A stretch of 64,000 nt of DNA from Alphaproteobacteria bacterium. GTDB lineage: Bacteria > Pseudomonadota > Alphaproteobacteria > RF32 > CAG-239. A program made the position numbers and the translations under genes. The notes under the pieces were generated by a model. The model was not told the origin of the DNA and did no database searches. It saw only the letters and a list, made by a program, of their open reading frames with translations. Positions 23,077 to 24,923 of this stretch are shown in pieces (the first letter of the stretch is position 1; every line of letters begins with the position of its first letter). The stretch is taken from NCBI GenBank assembly GCA_017528205.1, contig JAFXPE010000033.1:1-64000 (forward strand), read 5' to 3'.

Positions 23077-24078
23077 TTACAGCAAACCGTTGCGACACAA
23101 ATCGGCAAACACCGGCTTATACAGTCCGAGCTTTTTAATTAAAACCGAAGGGCGGGCATCTGTTTTCAAATTACGCTCACCGAAAGTGTTTCCTTTTTGG
23201 AATTTAAGAGTGGCGCTCGGCAATTCGGCTTTGCCGATACAAGAAGATAAATAAATCCAAACTTCATCATTATCCGCCAAATTTTCCACGGCTAACTTGC
23301 GTGCGTATAAATTAAGCGTTAAATCAGCCTTGGTGGCGTCTTTGCTCCACGGTGAACCTCCGCCCACGGCGCTGGCCGCGGAATAAAAGTCAACCGCTAA
23401 TTTACGTCCGGTTATGCCGCAGTCGGCAATGCTGGAATGGGTGGTATAATTTCCTGCCCCGTTGATGATGATTTGCCGCGGCTCGGTTTCTAAAGCCCGA
23501 CAAATGTCTGCGTGCAAATCTTCGTATTCGAGCATTGGCACGGCGGCAATTGCGGTTAAAACCTCTCCCCCGTTGCCGACGGTTACCTGTGTTTTGATGT
23601 CCAGCCCCAAGTTACGGCTGTCCAAAGCTTTGGCATATAAAGCGCGATTAAGTTTGCGTGCCAGATAAAGCTCGCGGTTGATATATCCTTCTCCCTGACA
23701 AGCATAGCCGATATATACGCCTTGGTCTCCCCAACCGTTGTTATCCACACCGGCGGCAATTTCGCTCGATTGCTTTCCGATAAGGTTAATTACCTTAATT
23801 TTGCGCACATCAACGGCCTTGTCCTGCCATATTTGAGCATATTCTTCATTATAGCCTATTTCGCGCAATGCTTCCTTCACATATTCCGCAAACGGCACAT
23901 CTGTAAATTGAGAACAAACTTCGCCGCCCAAAACCACGGTATTGTCTTTAATCATAACTTCTACGGCGTAACGTGTTGAGGCGTCGTGTTCAATAAAGCG
24001 GTCCAAAATATAGCTGGTAATGTAGTCGGCAATTTTATCCGGGTGTCCCAACGAGACACTTTCTGCTGTTTTAATCAT
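23077..24078 (-). CDS. metK: S-adenosylmethionine synthase, short divergent form
   Basis: 333 residues against about 385 in typical MetK. It makes SAM from methionine and ATP. Core motifs are present: ESVSLGHPDKIAD (catalytic His, methionine/ATP site), GGEV, NGWGDQGVYIGYA in place of the usual GAGDQG..FGYA, DCGITGRK, and the P-loop-like GGGSPWSKDATKAD in place of GGGAFSGKDPTKVD. The missing length is in loops and the C-terminal end. Retained catalytic residues argue for activity. AGGAG lies 7 bases before the ATG and forms the 3' edge of the riboswitch. No other metK lies in the window. Confidence 0.88.
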   Translation of the reverse strand: MIKTAESVSLGHPDKIADYITSYILDRFIEHDASTRYAVEVMIKDNTVVLGGEVCSQFTDVPFAEYVKEALREIGYNEEYAQIWQDKAVDVRKIKVINLIGKQSSEIAAGVDNNGWGDQGVYIGYACQGEGYINRELYLARKLNRALYAKALDSRNLGLDIKTQVTVGNGGEVLTAIAAVPMLEYEDLHADICRALETEPRQIIINGAGNYTTHSSIADCGITGRKLAVDFYSAASAVGGGSPWSKDATKADLTLNLYARKLAVENLADNDEVWIYLSSCIGKAELPSATLKFQKGNTFGERNLKTDARPSVLIKKLGLYKPVFADLCRNGLL

Positions 24079-24085
24079 TTTCTTT

Positions 24086-24137
24086 CTCCTGTTTAGTCCA
24101 TTTAATGCTGGACAATTCGGTTAAATCCACATTTACG
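24086..24137 (-). promoter_or_regulatory. SAM-II (SAM_alpha) type riboswitch in the metK leader
   Basis: Read on the minus strand. P1 is AAUGU (24133-24129) with GCAUU (24108-24104). The loop is GGAUUUAACCGAAUUG followed by UCCA, very close to the conserved SAM-II loop GAUUU..CCG..UUG. The pseudoknot P2 pairs GUCCA (24113-24109) with UGGAC (24100-24096). The conserved CUAAA comes next and runs into the metK ribosome site AGGAG (24090-24086). SAM-II is known to bind SAM and hide the ribosome site of methionine/SAM genes in Alphaproteobacteria. The match is from memory of the consensus, not from a covariance search. Confidence 0.78.
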
Positions 24138-24167
24138 GTAACGGTTTTCGTTGTCGTAACGCAAACT

Positions 24168-24196
24168 TTATAAAACGGAATTATTCACATTGTCAA
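24168..24196 (-). promoter_or_regulatory. Promoter of metK
   Basis: On the minus strand, TTGACA (24196-24191), a 17-bp spacer and TTATAA (24173-24168). It lies about 90 bp upstream of the start codon, leaving room for the riboswitch leader. Confidence 0.7.
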
Positions 24197-24254: not shown

Positions 24255-24923
24255 ATGAAACACATCGGTTTAATGTTTGCTATGCAAAAGGAAATGAATT
24301 TCTTTGCTTCTATTTTGCAAGATTTACAGCAACAAACTATTCATAAATGTACTTTTTATACCGGCCATATCGGTGATAAAATTATTACCGCCGTGGTTTC
24401 GGGAATGGGAAAAGTCAACGCCGCGCTCTGCACTTCTGATTTGATCAAAGTTTTTAACGCGGATATAATATTAAATATCGGTATTTCCGGTGGCATAGAC
24501 AACAGCTTGAAAATCGGCGATTTTGTGGTTGGTAAAGATATCGTTTATCACGATGTATGGTGCGGAAATCCTTATAAATACGGACAAGTCCAGGGGTTGC
24601 CGGAAGTTTATCACAGCGAACCGACTTTGGTGGCTAAACTCAAAAAATATAAACAGGGACTGTTGTGTTGCGGCGATTTCTTTGTAGAAAAAGACGATAA
24701 ATTGCAAGAAATTAAAAAAATGTTTCCGTCGGGATTGGCTGTGGATATGGAAAGTGCGGCAATCGCCCAAACTTGCTTTTTATATAATGTTCCTTTTTTG
24801 TCGGTACGACAAATAAGCGATGTACCAGGAGAAGAAAATCAAGCCGAGCAATATGTCACGTTTTGGGATAACGCGCCGAAGAATTCCATCAACACCGTTC
24901 GCGAAATTTTGGAGATAATTTAA
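24255..24923 (+). CDS. mtnN: 5'-methylthioadenosine/S-adenosylhomocysteine nucleosidase
   Basis: This 222-residue protein cleaves adenine from MTA and SAH, removing the by-products of SAM use. The N-terminus (IGLMFAMQKEMNFF) has the acid/base Glu. GMGKVNAAL, NIGISGGID, AVDMESAAIAQ (substrate-binding Glu) and RQISDVPG (catalytic Asp) follow. GAAGGAGA precedes the ATG. It is divergent from metK, so SAM synthesis and SAH/MTA clearance flank one intergenic region. Its stop overlaps the next start by one base. Confidence 0.92.
   Translation: MKHIGLMFAMQKEMNFFASILQDLQQQTIHKCTFYTGHIGDKIITAVVSGMGKVNAALCTSDLIKVFNADIILNIGISGGIDNSLKIGDFVVGKDIVYHDVWCGNPYKYGQVQGLPEVYHSEPTLVAKLKKYKQGLLCCGDFFVEKDDKLQEIKKMFPSGLAVDMESAAIAQTCFLYNVPFLSVRQISDVPGEENQAEQYVTFWDNAPKNSINTVREILEII

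Follow-up and report, generated by a model that had tools for sequence, protein, structure and literature searches.

The metK gene in the 64-kb window (the whole stretch of DNA that was analysed, 64,000 nt) is preceded by a leader that very probably acts as a translational OFF riboswitch for SAM, with the fold of SAM-II and SAM-V and forming a subfamily of its own. The leader lies on the minus strand (24086-24159) and contains the stem P1 (AAUGU/GCAUU), the GAUUUAACCGAAUUG segment, the pseudoknot GUCCA/UGGAC and a CUAAA tract abutting the Shine-Dalgarno (SD) sequence, followed by the metK ATG at 24078 on the same strand (Table 1). The preliminary description had named P1, the loop, the pseudoknot, CUAAA and the SD, and each of them was found on the minus strand where it had been placed. 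The promoter that it saw upstream can likewise be read in the sequence as TTGACA, an 18-nt spacer and TATAAA, and the transcript would start near 24160. A generic promoter scan did not list this TTGACA/TATAAA pair, because the scan demands a T at the last -10 position. A structural pattern combining the third strand with a complementary pseudoknot, CUAAA and GGAG occurred once in the 64-kb window and in none of 200 dinucleotide shuffles.

Table 1. Features of the metK leader and its surroundings (positions in the window)
Feature	Position	Strand	Basis
-35 element TTGACA	24191..24196	-	sequence; similar TTGACA-type boxes upstream in relatives
-10 element TATAAA, 18-nt spacer from -35	24167..24172	-	sequence
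P0, extra 5' hairpin UUACG-AC-AACG-AAAAC-CGUU-AC-CGUAA, immediately 5' of P1	24133..24159	-	minimum free energy fold; stems in relatives
P1 5' strand AAUGU (AATGT 24133-24129)	24129..24133	-	covariation
GATTTAACCGAATTG, conserved segment	24127-24113	-	sequence
GAUUUA, putative triplex third strand (SAM pocket)	24122..24127	-	conserved in alignment, partly imposed by search pattern; role by SAM-V/SAM-II structural equivalence (PMC6061858)
P2a 5' strand CC, partner GG of SD	24119..24120	-	free-energy fold; compensatory changes CCU/AGG, CCA/UGG in relatives
P2 5' strand UUGUCCA (GTCCA 24113-24109)	24109..24115	-	P2 pairing; compensatory variants GUUC/GAAC, GCCC/GGGC in relatives
P1 3' strand GCAUU (GCATT 24108-24104)	24104..24108	-	covariation
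P2 3' strand UGGAC-U-AAA (TGGAC 24100-24096, CTAAA 24096-24092)	24092..24100	-	sequence, covariation; PMC6061858
Shine-Dalgarno AGGAG, partly within P2a	24086..24090	-	sequence; free-energy fold
metK, SAM synthetase, 333 aa, regulated gene	23077..24078	-	Pfam N- and C-terminal domains above cut-off
MTA/SAH nucleosidase, divergent neighbour	24255..24923	+	likewise near metK in 21 relatives

Rfam at gathering thresholds reported two tRNAs only in the 64-kb window and no SAM family. When a 501-nt region was searched permissively, the best match was SAM-V with 23.5 bits (23.6 in a repeat) against a threshold of 41, with E 0.17 over 4227 families. SAM_alpha (SAM-II, RF00521) did not match the window at its gathering score of 36, and neither this model nor SAM-II long loops (RF01726) nor SAM/SAH (RF01727) matched the region at E up to 10. 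Among 20 relatives, no Rfam SAM family was found at gathering score. The Rfam SAM-II search on the leader that the preliminary description had proposed therefore came back empty, with SAM-V scoring better, yet sub-threshold. SAM_alpha matched 123 of the 240 genomes of the class (above cut-off in 100), which shows that the model works in the class and does not see the metK-leader element. On the window's own genome it left the metK leader unmatched and gave chance-level matches elsewhere, of a kind also obtained in 14 control genomes at that E-value.

A MetK protein query gave 58 loci in named alphaproteobacterial MAGs, for the most part of animal gut or rumen origin, and a further 25 came from sister genomes. 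Of the 79 related loci whose DNA extends 150 nt or more upstream of metK, 71 carry the element there, and this conservation is the decisive evidence for it. The preliminary description had staked its reading on homologous leaders keeping the P1 and P2 pairings, and both were preserved. A covariance model with P1 only, built from related leaders (R1), matched 92 of 152 genomes of the family, belonging to 13 of its 16 genera, and was also matched in four further alphaproteobacterial families (E 4e-13 to 2e-7), in two of which metK is located downstream. The R1 score on the window itself, 66.5 bits, is circular because the model includes the window sequence.

Covariation was analyzed in 50 distinct sequences, aligned as equal-length pieces with trimmed loops and N padding. 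P1, P2 and P2a together formed standard pairs in 87.7% of cells, as compared to 28-49% with the partners slid, and none of 500 shuffles reached the observed paired percentage, double-change cells or covariation score, although the covariation counts are inflated by related sequences. Five of the seven P1 pairs were changed on both sides, and in a larger set of 121 distinct sequences the P1 types included AATGTG/CACATT, AAGGTG/TACCTT, GAATCG/CGATTC and AAAGTG/CACTTT. P2 was near-invariant and its variation is confined to few sequences, with the compensatory variants GUUC/GAAC in L185 and GCCC/GGGC in L259 and L260; the core was in part preset by the extraction patterns, which accounts for some of its invariance. 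P2a is formed by the linker pairing with the SD, with 2 bp only in the window, while in one group a CUCC linker pairs the entire GGAG. Its outer pair was UA in 43 cases, AU in 6 and AA in 2, i.e. CCU/AGG vs. CCA/UGG, which makes the SD itself part of the conserved helix; some linker/SD combinations, such as ACCTTA with ATGGAG, are without extended P2a pairing. A candidate pair joining the nucleotide just 3' of UCC to the one just 5' of GGAC showed no covariation above chance level in the full set. Taken together, the structure is present and conserved and is placed on the ribosome site, with strong covariation in P1 and rarer compensatory changes in P2 and P2a.

The element combines traits of two known classes. 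As in SAM-II (RF00521, the metA motif), it has one stem, P1, and one pseudoknot, P2, both supported by covariation, and it has the pocket segments GAUUU(A/G), (A/C)UUG and CUAAA when compared with the classical copies L098-L127. It is located upstream of a methionine/SAM gene (metK) in Alphaproteobacteria, and a metX example of SAM-II is also translational with a 2-bp P2a. It differs from SAM-II by a longer P2 (UUGUCC/GGAC vs. UUGC/GC in the classical copies examined), by a P2a of 2-4 bp on the SD where the classical one is about 5 bp, by the lack of an RF00521 match and by its target, which in SAM-II is metA, metX, metY, metC or hom. With SAM-V (RF01826) it shares the H-type pseudoknot, a long P2 of the form UUGUxC/GxACUAAA with four pairs below a bulged U, a short P2a that includes the SD, translational control and occurrence in Alphaproteobacteria. 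In contrast to SAM-V, the third strand is GAUUUA instead of GCAUUUG, and the P3 stem between P1 and P2 is absent from the window, which has a three-A loop there, and from most copies; a P3-like stem was seen in few relatives only (L052, L056, L066). GAUUUA and the missing P3 are rather SAM-II-like traits. The extra 5' hairpin P0 also differs from SAM-V, as do the targets, here metK and mobile cassettes and in SAM-V metY, bhmT and mmuM. SAM/SAH (RF01727) resembles the element as a small pseudoknot upstream of metK in Alphaproteobacteria (Rhodobacterales), but gave no match, and the core segments here are those of SAM-II/SAM-V. SAM-II long loops (RF01726) were named as an expansion of SAM-II (PMC2864571), but were reported from Bacteroidetes and marine samples and gave no match either. 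Known SAM_alpha targets in Proteobacteria are metY, metA, metX, metC, metW and hom, with metK not among them, and the alphaproteobacterial metK riboswitch described is the SAM/SAH one of Rhodobacterales (PMC4239095); metK is not mentioned by Corbino et al. (PMC1273637).

The element could still be an ordinary member of SAM-II (RF00521) or SAM-V (RF01826) that merely scores low in the Rfam models, and the shared pocket segments and pseudoknot, the sub-threshold SAM-V match and the superposition of the SAM-II and SAM-V cores at 0.37 A rmsd (PMC6061858) are in line with this. We consider it rather doubtful, as SAM_alpha omits the site altogether, yet finds classical members in those 123 genomes, and as classical SAM-II and SAM-V loci in turn escape R1. 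Without a significant cross-match (best 11.2 bits), the three groups cannot be merged at the model level. In addition, the lengths of P2 and P2a are unlike those of classical SAM-II and most copies are without the P3 of SAM-V. SAM-V was itself split from SAM-II because of differing helix lengths and separate sorting by search algorithms (PMC2704228), and by the same criterion the metK-leader element is best placed in the SAM-II/SAM-V superfamily as a third subfamily, absent from Rfam. Of the SAM-II riboswitch on metK in the preliminary description, the kind of pseudoknot stood and the RF00521 label did not, since SAM-V scores higher and the P2 length and SD helix are SAM-V-like. In two loci of another alphaproteobacterial family (L270, L271), the third strand is GATTTG as in classical SAM-II, yet P2 is GUCC/GGAC; they precede a protein of at least 331 aa without known identity and are possible intermediates.

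In the SAM-V structure the SAM adenine pairs with U47, the sulfonium is adjacent to the U20:A48.U9 triple and the contact to A50 is made by the amino acid moiety (PMC6061858). By alignment, the equivalents of these contacts in the window would be UUU at 24125-24123, UUG at 24115-24113, U24095 and A24094-24092, so that the 3' strand of P2 includes the U and A equivalent to U47 and A50. The matching segments (UUU, UUG, CUAAA) are kept across relatives, although the search patterns themselves demanded part of this invariance. We infer that the ligand is SAM and that its binding turns expression off. P1 and the pseudoknot P2 would stack, and GAUUUA would lie in the major groove of P2 and form the SAM pocket with UUG and CUAAA. 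Binding of SAM would then lock the third strand and close P2a (CC with the GG of AGGAG), thereby hiding the ribosome site, and SAM synthase would be made only when SAM falls. The product feedback on SAM synthase suggested in the preliminary description is still the best reading, as the downstream gene makes SAM and homologous leaders keep P1 and P2.

The same fold might instead serve another ligand (SAH, SAM/SAH or MTA), for example in view of the divergent MTA/SAH nucleosidase; the metK riboswitches of Rhodobacterales bind both SAM and SAH (PMC2864571) and a change of ligand is known for some SAM aptamers (PMC10853860). This is highly unlikely, because the counterparts of the nucleotides close to the sulfonium and the adenine are kept, and because the nucleosidase, on the opposite strand, is preceded by a leader of its own and accompanies only part of the metK copies. 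A conserved protein-bound leader, or a ribosome-site structure that binds no small molecule, would agree with a short leader that ends in the SD. Such an explanation is hardly probable at all given the detailed identity with the SAM-II/SAM-V pocket, the SAM-synthesis gene downstream and the combination of the same element with various expression platforms, namely a direct SD, a leader ORF and a terminator-like hairpin.

When metK follows the aptamer directly, P0 is usually found immediately 5' of P1, with stems that are diverse between species but at the same place (TTACGG/CCGTAA, TTGCGG/CCGCAA, AAAGAGAG/CTCTCTTT, TGATGA/TCATCA). A test for P0 gave p <=0.05 in 38 of 73 such leaders (Fisher p 3.5e-25), and the signal was weak (5 of 31, Fisher p 0.02) where a leader ORF or a long spacer follows the aptamer. 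The P0 of the window is an interrupted hairpin (-6.6 kcal/mol, z -1.67) and is not significant alone (p 0.87 under a short-loop rule). Probably, P0 stacks on the weak P1 and steadies it. Alternatively, it could protect the 5' end of the mRNA, as the predicted transcript start sits at its foot. The idea in the preliminary description of a minimal variant does not hold, since most such leaders add P0 beside the short P1 and the element is likewise found before genes outside methionine metabolism.

Other relatives appear to use the aptamer differently. In 18 relatives with the P1 type AAGGTG (L019, L020, L022, L023, L027, L029, L030, L032, L037, L040, L042, L043, L045, L046, L051, L053, L054 and L064) the aptamer SD serves a leader ORF, which in the cases read spans, and often passes beyond, a hairpin CCTTTGGTT...AACCAAAGG hiding the metK SD. 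The sequence AATCCACC, complementary to GGTGGATT of the aptamer (5' part), is kept in all 18, in one with a single mismatch. At low SAM, translation of the leader ORF would likely open the anti-SD hairpin over the metK SD. A conserved leader peptide was also considered and rejected, as the reading frame of the leader ORF is not fixed among relatives, which favours translation through the anti-SD hairpin. In L056, L058, L060 and L061 the aptamer is followed by a hairpin that, read by eye, resembles a terminator and has a T run (CCGTCAGCCGTT..AACGGTCGGCGGTTTTTT), which suggests a transcriptional version. Control at a distance is known for SAM-II from metA of Sinorhizobium (PMC9373788). A variant aptamer, GATTTAGGCCAAC, was observed upstream of metK in L033, L039, L041, L044 and L049; at least one genome with this variant (JAFUSH: L009, L039, L048) has further metK copies, and therefore the variant may mark a metK paralogue.

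The MetK protein is short and divergent (TIGR01034 162 bits vs. a cut-off of 309), and its gene is single-copy in a genome with an estimated completeness of 100%. In length it is close to the MetK genes of Streptococcus phages, with an identity of 32-34%. Several relatives have 2 or 3 metK copies, and the copies L047, L048, L055 and L063 are without the riboswitch. The genome lacks MetH, any MetE catalytic domain and a MetQ-type lipoprotein, and no transsulfuration-type enzyme was found above cut-off; from these absent enzymes the organism is probably a methionine auxotroph. The classical SAM-II targets are thereby missing, leaving metK as the remaining step to control.

The element is also found beyond metK. 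Two more copies are present in the window's own genome (contig 10:23898-23949 and contig 40:673-725; L187, L188), each with an ankyrin-repeat gene and a DUF3768 gene downstream, and the copy on contig 40 has a phage-integrase-family gene and a larger integrase nearby. Among 116 classified copies, 70 are located before metK, 26 before a small protein of unknown family and 14 before ankyrin genes. Cassette copies in relatives (L169-L186, L219-L260) are on integrase-bearing islands, and in L189 the island starts with an integrase adjoining a tRNA. Between the same genera, identity is 91-97% for the cassette DNA and 64-75% for the metK loci, which indicates that the cassette moves horizontally. 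The small protein has a confident predicted structure (pLDDT 90), but no Pfam, PADLOC or PHROG family was found for it, and the model had no fold match in PDB or BFVD. No plasmid or viral-contig copies of the cassette proteins were found, and a literature search found no link of SAM-II to ankyrin genes and no mention of DUF3768. The island in L189 also encodes a reverse transcriptase (L189:4148-5452) with a group II maturase-like domain, which matches DRT-type profiles as well (best RT_UG17). It is conceivable, albeit improbable, that the third subfamily extends beyond methionine metabolism, with the ankyrin, DUF3768 and small-protein cassettes switching on as host SAM falls. SAM depletion, for instance by phage attack on SAM or on the DNA-methylation supply, would then trigger a mobile-element or defence programme.

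Annotation based on Rfam thus misses a widespread putative SAM-sensing RNA subfamily in gut Alphaproteobacteria. The subfamily bridges SAM-II and SAM-V, with the ribosome site lying within the covarying aptamer, and offers natural examples of one aptamer on three expression platforms. Its cassette copies raise a testable question, namely for what reason a mobile element would read the SAM level of its host.
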